DNA of 34,414 nucleotides from a virus: positions 1-34,414 of the IMG/VR virus record IMGVR_UViG_3300030385_001679. One strand, 5' to 3'. Each line of letters opens with the position of its first letter. The first letter of the stretch is position 1. The translations under genes were made by a program, and so were the position numbers. This document shows, piece by piece, positions 8,418 through 26,009 of this stretch. The notes beneath the pieces are model-generated. The model had not been told where the DNA came from and did no database searches. It saw nothing but the letters and a program-made list of their open reading frames with translations.

Positions 8418-8840
8418 ATGAGTAACGTGACAATTGCACAACTTTTGCCTGGTGATAACCTTTTGTGTTGGATGCGATTAGGTCTGGCATTGTTTTTAGT
8501 ACGATATCCTCGGGGGACCATATATTATGAGGTTCCATCACGTCCACAAAGAGCGACCGCAGACTCGCTTCCTAGCTTTGGGGGCTACGTTGTCCAAAAT
8601 AACGTGTCTGATACAGTTTTGACTGTGCATGTGGTGCAACTGGACTCTTGGAGAAGTCCCACAAAGCGGCCATCTGCTGTCGCTTCGATCTCTTACTCTG
8701 CGTTTCAACGTATTCGTAGGTTTAGCAAAACGGCGGTAGAACCTCTGCGTGAGGAAGATGTCTTCAGGCCAACGAGCAAGGCTGGCTTTGGTGGTACGGC
8801 CTTCCGTCCGTTCAGAACGGTAGAAGAAGTGGCTTTATGA
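8418..8840 (+). CDS. Hypothetical protein at the head of the replication operon
   Basis: 140 residues beginning MSNVTIAQLL, the first gene after a likely extended -10 promoter. Composition is mixed, with an Arg/Ser-rich second half and several prolines; there is no signal peptide, membrane helix or metal-binding motif. Its end overlaps the J-domain gene by four bases (ATGA), so both are probably translated from one message. I do not recognise the family. Position suggests a replication or early accessory function, nothing more specific. Confidence 0.55.
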   Translation: MSNVTIAQLLPGDNLLCWMRLGLALFLVRYPRGTIYYEVPSRPQRATADSLPSFGGYVVQNNVSDTVLTVHVVQLDSWRSPTKRPSAVASISYSAFQRIRRFSKTAVEPLREEDVFRPTSKAGFGGTAFRPFRTVEEVAL

Positions 8841-9310
8841 TCATTGACAAAGTTAAGGGTGATTTTGTCTGTATACGTGGTCCAATCGCCGCTCCATGTT
8901 TAACCTATCTACGTCGTAGTATCCCTCCCATGAAGAGGTTTTACGATGAAACTAGTGCTTGTTGGTTTGTGTACCGAGACTATATTCTTCCCTTTGTACA
9001 GGTGGCAGTGCACTCTGGACATGCTGTGGATTACGCCTCCCTGCCTGACGATATTAAACAGGGTATTGACTCGGAGAAGGGAAATTGGCAACATGTGTCT
9101 CCGTCAGGACCAGAGATCGCTAAGGTGAAACCCATGAGTGTCAATAGAGCTTTTAAGATCTTACATCTTCGGCAGTCAGCTCCTGATTTTGTCGTAAAGG
9201 CTGCGTATCGCGCCCTGTCGTTGAAGCATCATCCTGACCAGGGTGGTGAGGCAGAAGTTTTCAAGAAGATTAACACTGCTTACCAACTTCTGCGTGAACG
9301 TGAAGAATAA
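8837..9310 (+). CDS. J-domain protein of the replication module
   Basis: The C-terminal third of this 157-residue protein is a J domain: FKILHL (106-111), the diagnostic HPD triad at 132-134 within SLKHHPDQGG, and a final helix FKKINTAYQLL. J domains stimulate the ATPase of DnaK-type chaperones. The N-terminal 95 residues are not a known DnaJ part (no G/F region or zinc centre), and may be the phage-specific targeting domain. Lying just upstream of a loader-like gene and the replicative helicase, it could bring host DnaK to the replisome, as lambda replication does with host DnaJ/DnaK. J domain is certain; role is inferred. Confidence 0.85.
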   Translation: MIIDKVKGDFVCIRGPIAAPCLTYLRRSIPPMKRFYDETSACWFVYRDYILPFVQVAVHSGHAVDYASLPDDIKQGIDSEKGNWQHVSPSGPEIAKVKPMSVNRAFKILHLRQSAPDFVVKAAYRALSLKHHPDQGGEAEVFKKINTAYQLLREREE

Positions 9311-18205: not shown

Positions 18206-18226
18206 TTTCCTGGTAATCGGAGGACA

Positions 18227-18271
18227 GGGCCTGCTTGCTCATCAAATACGGGAGTGAGCAGGCCCTTTTTT
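18227..18271 (+). terminator. Rho-independent terminator after ssb
   Basis: Arms GGGCCTGCTTGCTC (18227-18240) and GAGTGAGCAGGCCC (18252-18265) pair over 14 positions (12 Watson-Crick plus two adjacent G-U pairs in RNA), with an 11-base loop and six T residues at 18266-18271. It is the strongest terminator I can see in the window and separates the ssDNA-binding protein gene from recA. Confidence 0.93.
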
Positions 18272-18290
18272 ATTTCTGGGATATGGTGTA

Positions 18291-20147
18291 ATGACTGACG
18301 ATGCTAAGCTGAAGGCGCGTGAAGACATCCTCGCGCAGTTGAATAAGACACACGGAAAAGGGACGGTGTCTGTCTATGGTTCAGGCGCTAGGTTGGACGT
18401 GGACGCAGTGTCCACAGGTTCGTTGGCTATTGACATTGCATTAGGCATTGGTGGCTTGGCGAGAGGGCGCATTGTGGAGGTGTTTGGCCCTGAGTCGTGT
18501 TTGTCTGCGGAAACGTTTGTGCAGTACGAAACACGTACTAAGGATTGTAAACGGCAAAATAATAAGGGTGGTACTATCGGTACCGTAGAGCGTCTTTACC
18601 GCCTATTCCATAATTTACAGAAACCTGAACGTGGCAACTATCATCGGGAGGTTGCCTCTGAGTCTGAGTTTTTTGTGTCCTCGATCAATGAGGATGGACG
18701 GATTTTTAAAAACCGTATTGTGGATGTGATGTATGTGGGTCCACGTTCTTGTTTGGAGATCTGTGTTGATGGCCACCAGATCGTCGCTACGCCTGAGCAT
18801 AAATTTTGGGTTGGTGATCATTTTGTAGCGGCTGAGGAGTTAGCGGTTGGGGACACTGTGCATGTGCACAACAATACACATTTACAAAAAGCTGAGTCAG
18901 ACAAAGTCCCTGAGTCTGACCGACAGTATCTGTATGTTAAAGAGCACCCAGCGGCTGGGGTCAAAGTTGTGTGTGACACGTTACGGGGTTACTCTTACAA
19001 ATACTACCGATTGCCCCGTGCGCGTGCGGTTGTAGAAGCTGTCATGAACTCTCTGCCGCTTCATGAATACGTTAGTCGTCTGAACGATGGAATTCTGGAT
19101 GATCTGTTATTTCTTTCCAGAGATGATCATGTGCATCATGTGGACGAAGATTGCAGAAATGATGAGTTAGATAACTTGGCAGTCATCTCATCCACAGAGC
19201 ATGGTCGGTTGCACGAAATGAATAGGCATAGTGATCTGCGTTTTGCCTCAGTACCTAAGAAAGTGACTGCCATTAGTGTGGTGGAAGAGGAATGTCAGAC
19301 ATATGATATTCGTGTCGAATCTCCTTTTAACAACTATGTTGCAAACGGCTTTGTGGTTCACAACTCTGGGAAGACCACGTTGACGTTGCACTGCGTTGCC
19401 GAGGCGCAGAGGTTGGGAGGCTTGGCTGCGTTCATAGACGCGGAGCATGCGCTCGACCCTGAGTATGCTGCTAACATTGGCGTGAACATGGATGACTTGG
19501 TTGTGTCGCAGCCTAGTAGTGGTGAGCAAGCTCTACAGATCACAGAGGATCTAATTTCTAGTAATGCTTTTGACATTGTTGTTATCGACTCTGTGGCTGC
19601 GTTGGTGCCACAAGCAGAGATCGACGGTGACATGGGAAAACTGCTGCCTGGGCTACAGGCGCGTATGATGAGCCAGGCATGTCGTAAGCTCGCTAGCAAG
19701 GTCGCTAAGAGCAAGGTTATTCTGGTCTTTATTAATCAGATCAGGAATAAGATCGGCGTCATGTTTGGCTCTAACGAAACGACGAGTGGGGGACGTGCTC
19801 TTGCATTCTATTCGTCACAGCGGTTGGACATACGTAGGCTTGCTGCGATCAAGGATGGTACTGATCTTGTTGGTAACAAGACCCGTGTGAAGATTGTAAA
19901 GAACAAAGTCGCACCTCCATTCAAATCCTGTGAAATTGACATTGTGTACGGTAAGGGGATAGATACATACTCTGACATTGTCGATTATGCGGTGCATCTG
20001 AACCTTATGGAGAAGAATGGATCACATTACCAATACGAGGGTGATCGTATTGGACACGGTAGAGCCGCCACTAGAGATTGGTTGGAGCAGCACCCAGAGC
20101 ATTGTGAAGTGATCTTATCCACGATCAGAAAGCACTTTGGGATATGA
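18291..20147 (+). CDS. recA: RecA recombinase interrupted by an in-frame intein
   Basis: 618 codons: RecA residues 1-69, a 289-residue intein, then RecA residues to the end; the spliced protein would be 329 residues. Bacterial-type RecA is clear: [12 protein letters not shown]-like segment (41-52), Walker A reconstituted on splicing as [33 protein letters not shown] (Walker B), [13 protein letters not shown] and the [21 protein letters not shown] loop 2 region. RecA forms the filament for strand exchange. A shortened C-terminus lacks the acidic tail of the E. coli protein. The gene lies just after a strong terminator with no good promoter visible, and its stop overlaps sbcD (ATGA). Confidence 0.93.
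18498..19364 (+). other. Intein with HNH homing endonuclease domain in the RecA P-loop
   Basis: Begins with Cys ([12 protein letters not shown], block A) and ends [12 protein letters not shown] before a Ser at +1, so all splice-junction residues are present: Cys1, penultimate His288, Asn289, Ser+1. Block B is HQIVATPEH (intein residues 93-101). Between the splicing halves, about residues 145-244, lies an HNH_3-like endonuclease: YVKEHPAAG, then [20 protein letters not shown] and EHGRLH. HNH rather than LAGLIDADG as the homing module. Insertion is between Ser69 of GPES and the SGKTT half of Walker A, so unspliced RecA cannot bind ATP normally. It looks intact and active. Confidence 0.93.
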
Positions 20148-23381: not shown

Positions 23382-23735
23382 ATGCAAAAAGTACATGTTG
23401 AAGACATCTCTGTAGATGTTTCATTCTTACGAACTGGTGCAGACATACAAAAGGCTATTTACGCCCATGTGAAGAACTCGTTAGACCCTGCGTTGCAGGA
23501 GTTGACTGATGGGTTATCAGCGACGTTACAGAACGCAGATCATGCTGTAGCGTTTTTGATTGCTGTTACCGATGGATACGGGTTGAGCAGTAAGGCTTTG
23601 GCTGTAAAAAGTGTATGTGATAAGGCATCGCAGTTGACAAAACAGATAAGAGATTTGTCGTGTGTTGCTAAGAACATCATGCCAGAAGTTGTATATCGGG
23701 TTAGCTTAGAGGATGCGCAAAGATTTGGTTTGTAG
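23382..23735 (+). CDS. Hypothetical protein after sbcC
   Basis: 117 residues, ATG two bases after the sbcC stop. Predicted mostly helical, with regularly spaced Ala/Leu/Val and two cysteines (SVCDKASQL, DLSCVAKNI). No signal peptide, membrane helix or known motif. It is the last gene before a 62-base gap holding a promoter and inverted repeat, so it probably ends the recombination operon. No terminator is visible after it. Confidence 0.6.
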   Translation: MQKVHVEDISVDVSFLRTGADIQKAIYAHVKNSLDPALQELTDGLSATLQNADHAVAFLIAVTDGYGLSSKALAVKSVCDKASQLTKQIRDLSCVAKNIMPEVVYRVSLEDAQRFGL

Positions 23736-23743
23736 TGCTTGAA

Positions 23744-23772
23744 CTGACACAGAAATCATGCTTACATATACT
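23744..23772 (+). promoter_or_regulatory. Sigma70-type promoter of the accessory operon
   Basis: CTGACA (23744-23749, 5/6 to TTGACA), 17-base spacer, TATACT (23767-23772, 5/6 to TATAAT). Predicted start near 23779 gives a leader of about 19 bases before the GTG at 23798. The -35 lies across the left arm of an inverted repeat, so a DNA-binding regulator could compete with RNA polymerase. Confidence 0.55.
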
Positions 23773-23802
23773 TTGGCTTTAACCAAAGGATATTTCTGTG
23801 TC
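23746..23802. repeat. Nested inverted repeats over promoter, ribosome site and start codon
   Basis: Outer perfect arms GACACAGAAAT (23746-23756) and ATTTCTGTGTC (23792-23802); inner perfect arms CTTTGG (23771-23776) and CCAAAG (23783-23788) with a 6-base loop. The ribosome site AAAGGA (23785-23790) overlaps the inner right arm and the GTG start (23798-23800) lies in the outer right arm. There is no U-tract, so it is not a terminator. Confidence 0.85.
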
Positions 23803-24094
23803 TGAGACTTCTACTTCTGAAGATTTTGAGAATCAAGCTGCACAATTAATGTATGCGAACATCATGTCGCAACTTTTAGAGTCTGCGCGGTTCCAGAACT
23901 TTTTTCATGCTAACTTTGACTTACACAAGCGTATAGACGCGGACACGAAAACCATAAGTTATTTATTGGTTGAAGTTCCCCCAGCTGTGGCGCAACACAG
24001 GATAACTGACATGGTAGCTCTCCAGGAGTCAGCCGAGTCTCCTGACATTGTGGTGCCTAGTGCGTCGGAAATCAAAAAGATCTCCAAGACGTGA
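23798..24094 (+). CDS. Hypothetical protein, first gene of the accessory operon
   Basis: 98 residues from a GTG with a good ribosome site (AAAGGA, seven bases upstream). The start lies inside an inverted repeat, so translation may be controlled. The product is acidic at the N-terminus (MSETSTSEDFENQAAQLMYA), then helical with a Phe-rich stretch (FQNFFHANF) and a basic end. No recognised motif. Its stop overlaps the GTG of the next gene. Confidence 0.6.
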   Translation: MSETSTSEDFENQAAQLMYANIMSQLLESARFQNFFHANFDLHKRIDADTKTISYLLVEVPPAVAQHRITDMVALQESAESPDIVVPSASEIKKISKT

Positions 24095-24735
24095 TTGAGG
24101 TTTCTCCTGGCCGTCGATTTGGGCGATGGCTTGTAGTAGAAGAAGTGGGCTACAAGCAGAAGTACAAGTGCGTCTGCGCGTGTGGTCGTGAGCGTAATAT
24201 ACGAGTTTATGACCTTCTTAAAGGCAAAACTCGTATGTGTCGCTTTTGTTCAAGTGCAGCGAAGAAATCGCAGCATGGCCACACTGCCAACAATCAGATG
24301 TCTTCGGAATACACCAGTTGGGTTCATATGAACCAGCGGTGTAATAATCCTAAAAACAAATCGTATCCTCGCTATGGTGGGAAAGGCATTGAAGTGTTCT
24401 CTGTGTGGAGAAACAGTTTTGAGGCTTTCTTCTTGTATTTAGGACCAAAGCCTACACCAGCCTACACCATTGAGCGCATTGATTACAAAAAAGGATATGT
24501 GCCTGGCAATGTTCGGTGGGCTACTAGGCATGAGCAGGCGCTAAACAAGAGTGACAATGTTGTACTGGAAATTGATGGTCTTTCTAAAACAGTGAGCCAG
24601 TGGGCTAAGCACCCTGCTTGTCCTGTGCCTGCTGGCACGATCTACAAGCGGTTGTATCGCTCTTGGGATCCTCGTGACGCTGTATTTACACCAAGCCAGA
24701 GAGCTGTTAAGAATGTCGCGAAAAATAAACGCTAA
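24091..24735 (+). CDS. HNH/AP2-like free-standing homing endonuclease candidate
   Basis: 214 residues from a GTG overlapping the previous stop. The first 60 residues (PGRRFGRWLVVEE, then CVCACG and CRFC) form a zinc-ribbon-like head. The middle is a pattern widespread in phages: YTSWVHMNQRCNNPKNKSY, YGGKGIEV, W, then IERIDYKKGYVPGNVRWAT and EQALNKSDN, equivalent to the HNH active-site segment with the D-x-N-W order. The C-terminal part looks like a helix-turn-helix specificity domain (LSKTVSQWAKH... TIYKRL). Such genes are mobile and often nick phage DNA. Distinct from the HNH in the recA intein. Overlaps the resolvase-like gene by 23 bases. Confidence 0.75.
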   Translation: MIEVSPGRRFGRWLVVEEVGYKQKYKCVCACGRERNIRVYDLLKGKTRMCRFCSSAAKKSQHGHTANNQMSSEYTSWVHMNQRCNNPKNKSYPRYGGKGIEVFSVWRNSFEAFFLYLGPKPTPAYTIERIDYKKGYVPGNVRWATRHEQALNKSDNVVLEIDGLSKTVSQWAKHPACPVPAGTIYKRLYRSWDPRDAVFTPSQRAVKNVAKNKR

Positions 24736-25219
24736 GAGTAAAGGTAATCGTGCTGAGCGAGAATTAGCAAAGCTTTTTAAGCAGTGGTGGGGTAGTGACT
24801 TTGCAAGAACTCCGTCTTCTGGTGGATTCCACACCAAGAGATTCCGCTCGGATTGGAATGCTGAGGCAGACATTGTCACTACAGACACTAAGTTTCCATT
24901 CGCAGTGGAATGCAAGTGGCAGGAAAACTGGTTTTTAGAACAGTTGCTGAAGTCTTCTAAGGCGCTCCCATGGAAATGGTGGAAACAGGCTTGTTATCAA
25001 GCAGGAGAAGATAAAACTCCCCTGTTGGTGTTCAAACGTAGTCGTCACCCATGGTATTACATGTTGCCCGTGTCTTGTGCTGATCGTCTCCTAGAATCAT
25101 ATTTATATATGCAGCATGTAGTGGAAGATAAGCATGTTTGCATTGGGCTTCTTGAAGATTTATTCAAAACAGACCCAGAAATGTGGTGGGTCTTAGACGA
25201 CCATGTCCCGAACGACTAA
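24713..25219 (+). CDS. Holliday-junction-resolvase-like PD-(D/E)xK nuclease
   Basis: 168 residues from the ATG at 24713 (an upstream in-frame ATG at 24674 lies deep in the previous gene). The N-terminus has SKGNRAERELAKLFKQWWG, with the conserved Glu of Hjc-type resolvases, then RTPSSGG, AEADIV (catalytic Asp53) and VECKW (Glu66, Lys68), the full PD-(D/E)xK set. The pattern K-G-x-x-x-E-R-E-L followed by RxPxSGG is characteristic of archaeal/phage resolvases or nickases. It would resolve branched recombination or packaging intermediates. The long Trp-rich second half is not recognised. Confidence 0.7.
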   Translation: MSRKINAKSKGNRAERELAKLFKQWWGSDFARTPSSGGFHTKRFRSDWNAEADIVTTDTKFPFAVECKWQENWFLEQLLKSSKALPWKWWKQACYQAGEDKTPLLVFKRSRHPWYYMLPVSCADRLLESYLYMQHVVEDKHVCIGLLEDLFKTDPEMWWVLDDHVPND

Positions 25220-26009
25220 GTTTACAGTCGTAGGTGTGCACCCTCTGCTTTTCCCTACAAGAGACTTTTTGATACGAGAGGGTTATCATTTAGTGCCCCA
25301 TACAGAAGCCTGTGACTTTTGTCTGTATGGGGCTTCACTGAGTGCCAATACAAAGTTCTCGAAAAGAACTCAGCTTCTGTTGACGGAAACTGCGGAACTC
25401 TTCAAAAAATCTATACCGACACTAGTGTTATCCTCAGATTCTGTGTATGATTATGGTGGGGGTGATCTCAAAGACACTAACGAAGCTTTGGTGTCGTTCA
25501 TAAAGAAAAATCCTGTTTATTCAGCTTCAGCAGAATATTTATTTTATACGTCAACTTTGACTTCTGTGCTTATCCTTCGCCCATTCAATGTGTACGGAGA
25601 TGGGGTAAATTCAGGGGTTATTCACAAGTTTCTGACCGCTGCAAAAAAGAGAAAAGCTCTGGTAGTTTATGCCCCGCTAGGTCGTGTTCGCTCATTTTTA
25701 TTTATAGAAGATTTCTTTGAGTGTGTTAAACTGTGTATACCGAAACTACTATCAGGGATTAAGAGTACCTGTAATGTGGGATCTGACGAAAGTATCTCAA
25801 TCTATAAGTTAGCGAAACTTGTGAACGAGGCTTGCAACAGTCCCTCTGACATAGTGGTAAGTTCAAAAGACACAGACAAGCGTATTTGCAAGTTACCTAG
25901 CTTAGATCATATTTATGGTGTATTAGAATGGAGAGCCAAAACGAGTCTTCGTAGAGGGCTTTGGGTAATTACAACAGATATGAGGAATACAAATGATGTC
26001 GAACAATGA
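25203..26009 (+). CDS. Epimerase/dehydratase-like SDR protein, catalytic Lys apparently lost
   Basis: 268 residues resembling extended short-chain dehydrogenase/epimerases of nucleotide sugars: SSDSVYDYGGG (77-87), Y106 in NPVYSASAEY, and RPFNVYGDGVNSGVIHKF (126-143), then SFLFIEDF and STCNVGSDESISI. Two hallmark features are altered: the nucleotide-binding GxxGxxG after the first strand reads VVGVHPLLFPT, and the YxxxK motif reads YSASA (A110 in place of Lys). The overall fold is supported; normal NAD-dependent catalysis is doubtful. It starts inside the resolvase-like gene and overlaps the next gene by 17 bases. Confidence 0.65.
   Translation: MSRTTKFTVVGVHPLLFPTRDFLIREGYHLVPHTEACDFCLYGASLSANTKFSKRTQLLLTETAELFKKSIPTLVLSSDSVYDYGGGDLKDTNEALVSFIKKNPVYSASAEYLFYTSTLTSVLILRPFNVYGDGVNSGVIHKFLTAAKKRKALVVYAPLGRVRSFLFIEDFFECVKLCIPKLLSGIKSTCNVGSDESISIYKLAKLVNEACNSPSDIVVSSKDTDKRICKLPSLDHIYGVLEWRAKTSLRRGLWVITTDMRNTNDVEQ

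Follow-up and report, generated by a model that had tools for sequence, protein, structure and literature searches.

A Hairpin Enclosing a Promoter and a Ribosome Site, Predicted to Mask a Phage Gene Start on Read-Through RNA

Introduction

In the IMG/VR phage record analysed here, the whole of which (34.4 kb) is referred to as the window, a gap of 62 nt between two genes carries a pair of nested inverted repeats, which is best read as a combined promoter and translation lock, with read-through RNA masked and locally initiated RNA translated. A probability of about two in three is assigned to this reading. The left strand of the predicted hairpin would double as a sigma70-type promoter, and the right strand contains the ribosome site and the GTG of the small gene ORF98. 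RNA reading through from the upstream uvsX-sbcD-sbcC unit would hold both strands and fold, hiding the start, while RNA from the local promoter would begin in the loop without the left strand, leaving the start free for translation. Translation of ORF98 would then depend on the local promoter, whatever its timing, and coupling through gene overlaps would probably carry the same dependence to an HNH endonuclease gene and the genes that follow it.

This reading is drawn from the sequence, the pairing, the predicted thermodynamics, the lack of a convincing terminator and the overlapping downstream genes, from which we infer promoter activity, the start site, read-through, repression, coupling and any timing; every function ascribed to the element below is a prediction. 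The element is accordingly presented as a well-supported prediction of another switch of the T4 gene e type, one that is not conserved in the distant relatives available. A broader proposition is more tentative, its chance of being right falling well short of even: that a promoter-nested masking hairpin with both a -35 and a -10 has evolved in a phage that does not belong to the T4 group, the start codon lying opposite the -35 arm and the Shine-Dalgarno sequence opposite the -10 arm, with a bulge to absorb the difference in spacing, that this hairpin silences a chain of overlapping nuclease genes, and that it arose where neighbouring genes were lost.

Genomic Context of the Element

The window encodes helicases, a primase, a PolA-type polymerase, an SSB-like protein, an intein-bearing UvsX/RecA, SbcD, SbcC, nucleases, methyltransferases and a large terminase subunit, as well as a small protein with a C-terminal DnaJ domain (8837-9310). 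The uvsX/RecA gene (18291-20147) contains its intein at residues 120-358 (Pfam Intein_splicing), with an HNH motif near residues 264-313. The 62-nt gap is flanked by an ORF of 117 aa, located 3' of sbcC, and by ORF98, which starts at 23798. The genes around it are as follows.

23382..23735, plus strand: ORF117, 117 aa, the gene with which the upstream uvsX-sbcD-sbcC transcription unit ends, with distant homologues 3' of SbcC in relatives
23798..24094, plus strand: ORF98, 98 aa, the gene with the putatively masked start, kept upstream of the HNH gene in relatives
24091..24735, plus strand: HNH endonuclease gene, joined to the ORF98 stop by a GTGA overlap
24674..25219, plus strand: gene for a RusA-like / PDDEXK_15 nuclease, overlapping the HNH gene
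25203..26009, plus strand: epimerase-like ORF, overlapping the RusA-like gene

The series of end-to-start overlaps thus runs from ORF98 through the HNH gene, the RusA-like nuclease gene and the epimerase-like gene to the next ORF, and since the genes from ORF98 to the epimerase-like gene overlap, translational coupling may extend a masking effect downstream. The epimerase-like gene also contains a 12-bp perfect inverted repeat at 25295-25332. The AlphaFold model of ORF98 has a pLDDT of 84, and fold searches with it returned no significant match.

An intrinsic terminator of textbook form, with a long G+C-rich stem-loop followed by a T run, is located at 18226-18275 in the interval between the SSB-like gene and uvsX. 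Sequence scans found no convincing terminator between uvsX and the element, nor in the 62-nt gap itself. An earlier note on this DNA had considered read-through transcripts from sbcC; the lack of a convincing terminator upstream agrees with read-through, with the small correction that the 117-aa ORF (23382-23735) intervenes between sbcC and the element.

Nested Inverted Repeats, Predicted Promoter and Predicted Fold

The components of the element, all on the plus strand, are listed below.

23744..23772, plus strand: candidate sigma70-like promoter CTGACA-17-TATACT, matching the consensus at 10/12 positions
23746..23756, plus strand: outer left arm GACACAGAAAT, overlapping the -35 and pairing with the start codon region
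23755..23765, plus strand: one-sided RNA bulge of the MFE structure, coinciding with the promoter spacer
23766..23776, plus strand: inner left arm, holding the -10 and pairing with the Shine-Dalgarno region (10/11 pairing)
23777..23782, plus strand: loop of the hairpin, CTTTAA, in which local transcription is predicted to begin
23783..23793, plus strand: inner right arm, with the Shine-Dalgarno sequence AAAGGAT (23785-23791)
23792..23802, plus strand: outer right arm ATTTCTGTGTC, with the GTG start codon (23798-23800)

The earlier note had described an 11-bp perfect repeat enclosing a 6-bp hairpin, with the ribosome site in the inner right arm, the GTG in the outer right arm and the left arm over the -35, and this description is borne out. 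The outer arms (23746-23756 and 23792-23802), 35 nt apart, are complementary at 11/11 positions; the 6-bp hairpin proves to be the core, CTTTGG/CCAAAG, of longer inner arms (23766-23776 and 23783-23793), complementary at 10/11 positions around a 6-nt loop. The outer left arm covers four of the six bases of the -35 CTGACA, and the -10 falls within the inner left arm. AAAGGAT and GTG are located in the right arms as that note placed them.

The right arms abut without a gap, leaving the right strand pairable over its full 20 nt, and the left arms are separated by about 9-11 nt that remain unpaired as a one-sided bulge in the MFE structure. The start codon is thereby set against the -35 arm, and the Shine-Dalgarno sequence against the -10 arm. 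The dyad axes of the two repeats differ (23774.0 vs 23779.5), and this, together with the abutting right arms, is what a single RNA helix with a one-sided bulge needs. As read from the sequence, the bulge approximates the 17-nt promoter spacer minus the 6-8-nt spacing between the Shine-Dalgarno sequence and the start, so that promoter and ribosome site each keep the spacing they require; this arithmetic may reflect selection. No Rfam covariance model matched anywhere in the window at its gathering score.

Within 20-34.4 kb of the window, both strands counted, only two promoter matches of 10/12 occur, CTGACA-17-TATACT among them, and shuffling the 62-nt gap produces a match of 10/12 or better in 2% of cases. 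If the promoter is active, as its sequence suggests, the usual distance from -10 to +1 would place the transcription start at about 23778-23781, within the loop. Separately, a promoter-like site with TTGACA and a spacer of 16 nt recurs in several relatives, in front of genes close to the SSB-like gene (L095 ~517, L096 ~62, L104 ~709, L101 ~301 and L093 ~571), and may be the promoter of the phage family.

Accessibility of the ORF98 Start

Among the 41 window starts tested in silico, that of ORF98 (23798) is the least accessible on read-through RNA, with a mean unpaired probability of 0.11 and the next at 0.31. Opening its Shine-Dalgarno sequence and GTG is predicted to cost 11.7 kcal/mol on the read-through RNA and 3.3 kcal/mol on an RNA begun at the predicted local start; no other of the 41 starts falls by as much as this 8.4 kcal/mol, the mean drop for the rest being 0.75 +/- 1.7. 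T4 gene e, put through the same program as a control over an 18-nt stretch (17-nt for ORF98), goes from 15.5 to 4.2-4.4 kcal/mol when its upstream sequence is removed. The earlier suggestion that read-through RNA folds so as to conceal the start, and that local transcripts lacking the left arms do not, thus gains support in silico as well as from the T4 precedent.

Across 385 starts, taken from the window and from 32 related loci, that of ORF98 alone combines a promoter match with masking and release. A few starts in the related loci are about equally inaccessible and have no promoter, so low accessibility alone is no proof of regulation. The start of the HNH gene, with an opening cost of 9.7 kcal/mol, shows the second largest drop among the 41 starts, and a start so costly to open is consistent with translational coupling to ORF98.

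The same note saw in this reading a way to silence the operon early. This part is not supported, because the local promoter resembles a common sigma70 promoter rather than a late one and would be readable early by host RNA polymerase.

Operator or RNA Fold

The other reading offered by the earlier note is a DNA operator, at which a repressor dimer or tetramer would bind the inner 28-bp palindrome, perhaps aided by the outer arms, and repress the local promoter. The inner palindrome is compact (10/11, with a 6-bp spacer), centred on the predicted transcription start and overlapping the -10, which is the classical position of an operator; moreover, in T4 the autorepressor site of I-TevI overlaps the promoter of the hairpin-controlled gene (PMC2988022). 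However, the outer and inner dyads share no common axis and the outer arms are 35 bp apart. Operators commonly recur at other promoters under the same control, yet in the window no second copy of the outer arm, of the inner palindrome (best other site with 2 mismatches) or of the -10 block stands out. Nor did the ORF98 model significantly resemble any DNA-binding fold, and those window proteins that were scanned included no identifiable HTH repressor. An operator is therefore considered unlikely as the explanation of the whole element, and masking of read-through RNA is favoured over it; the inner palindrome alone could nevertheless serve as an operator, and the two functions could coexist.

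Rarity of the Element and Its Distribution in Relatives

The element might have no function at all, having arisen by chance or as a neutral inverted duplication that remained when a rearrangement deleted neighbouring genes. The outer inverted repeat by itself is only mildly unusual, with 0.235 perfect inverted repeats of 11 bp or longer, spanning no more than 57 nt, expected per dinucleotide-shuffled window vs 2 seen. For the whole element, the predicted folding energy is -17.9 kcal/mol (z -4.6), a stability reached by a fraction of 0.0005 of 2000 shuffles, although its absolute energy is less special, 411 of 6871 same-length windows folding at least as stably. The composite geometry, counted as matched columns in an arrangement with a contiguous right strand and a single left bulge, is more distinctive: 20 matched columns are present here vs a best of 14 in 40 shuffled windows, and the geometry is absent from 218 kb of related loci.

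No annotated phage resembles the window at the DNA level, and scans of IMG/VR with ORF98, ORF117 or SbcC singly, and with the exact hairpin, gave no match. Profile scans with the SbcC, HNH and RusA-like proteins recovered only distant relatives with the same gene order, and a scan of genome contigs found none closer. The SbcC identity of these relatives is about 32-37% over the full length, reaching 51% over one partial segment. Distant homologues of ORF117 are located downstream of SbcC in L010, L090-L093, L095, L097, L133 and L143, and homologues of ORF98 were found at 15 distinct loci. The masking hairpin is absent before ORF98 in all 15 of the distant relatives examined, in which ORF98 closely follows the gene upstream (gap of -8 to +38 nt) and has a more accessible start (0.28-0.65). 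As only distant relatives were found, and these have no hairpin, covariation lends masking no support, and as far as the data reach the element appears specific to the lineage of the window.

In most relatives, a kinase-like gene lies between the homologues of ORF117 and ORF98, and several add a small membrane gene (for example, the region spans 7094-8160 in L010 and 8393-9302 in L012). The window lacks both genes exactly at the site of the hairpin (23735-23798). That the element stands precisely where these genes are missing, and that no relative has it, fits a scar of rearrangement. Against such an origin, no shuffle attained the composite geometry, and the element coincides with a promoter match, a Shine-Dalgarno sequence and a start codon, each correctly spaced. 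Chance or neutral duplication is thus judged quite improbable. The remnant of a mobile element was also considered and dropped, with no target duplication beside the outer arms, as was a palindrome substrate of SbcCD, for which the arms here are far too short.

Terminator and Short Reading Frame

A weak terminator or attenuator of the upstream operon would likewise place a hairpin at this position, and the inner hairpin was in fact flagged as terminator-like by a pattern scan. The inner stem, however, contains just three G-C pairs and is followed by an interrupted tail, GATATTTCTG; the scan yields such sites readily in shuffles (11 +/- 3), and the terminator at 18226-18275 offers a comparison from the same phage. 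This function is very improbable. Scarcely credible is translation of the read-through RNA through a 15-codon frame (ATG 23758 to TGA 23805), whose ribosomes would open the hairpin: the frame exists, with its ATG in the unpaired bulge and its stop overlapping the ORF98 start, but no Shine-Dalgarno sequence precedes it and frames so short are common.

Comparison with Known Phage Switches

Masking of a ribosome site on read-through RNA has been described in T4, where hairpins on early read-through transcripts cover the ribosome sites of genes e, soc and 49, and where the long transcript of gene e is translated about 100-fold less (PMC3014915). The same arrangement controls the endonuclease genes I-TevI, I-TevII, I-TevIII and segB, as well as the HNH gene mobE of Aeh1, which are located in early or middle units and stay silent until their own promoter fires (PMC2988022).

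The likeness to gene e is close. In both cases the ribosome site is located in the 3' strand of a hairpin and the local promoter, here predicted from sequence, in the 5' strand, so that local RNA lacks the 5' strand, and the predicted opening costs are comparable (15.5 to about 4.3 vs 11.7 to 3.3 kcal/mol). Two features of the class are found at ORF98: a stable hairpin keeps the Shine-Dalgarno sequence and the start paired within its 3' strand, and its 5' strand contains the candidate promoter. A patchy distribution is also shared, as some relatives of T4 have gene e without the structure (PMC3014915). The differences concern the promoter and the bulge. Gene e is served by a late promoter, TATAAATA, with no -35, whereas the promoter here is a two-element sigma70-like one; its hairpin has no long bulge, whereas the bulge here falls in the promoter spacer. 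More generally, the T4 examples use late or middle promoters, while that of the window resembles the host sigma70 type, and the phage is not T4-like by DNA.

If the predicted function is true, the switch of T4 lysozyme and I-TevI extends beyond T4-like phages and their late promoters. A search rule would be suggested as well, with a -35 opposite a start codon, a -10 opposite a Shine-Dalgarno sequence and a bulge near the difference in spacing; phage genomes could be scanned with it to find genes shielded from transcription that reads through. With the controls of the homing endonucleases, the element shares the same logic, the putatively masked ORF98 overlapping an HNH endonuclease gene. The masked start, however, is that of the small ORF98 before the HNH gene, and because this HNH gene is syntenic in most of the relatives found, it does not look mobile.
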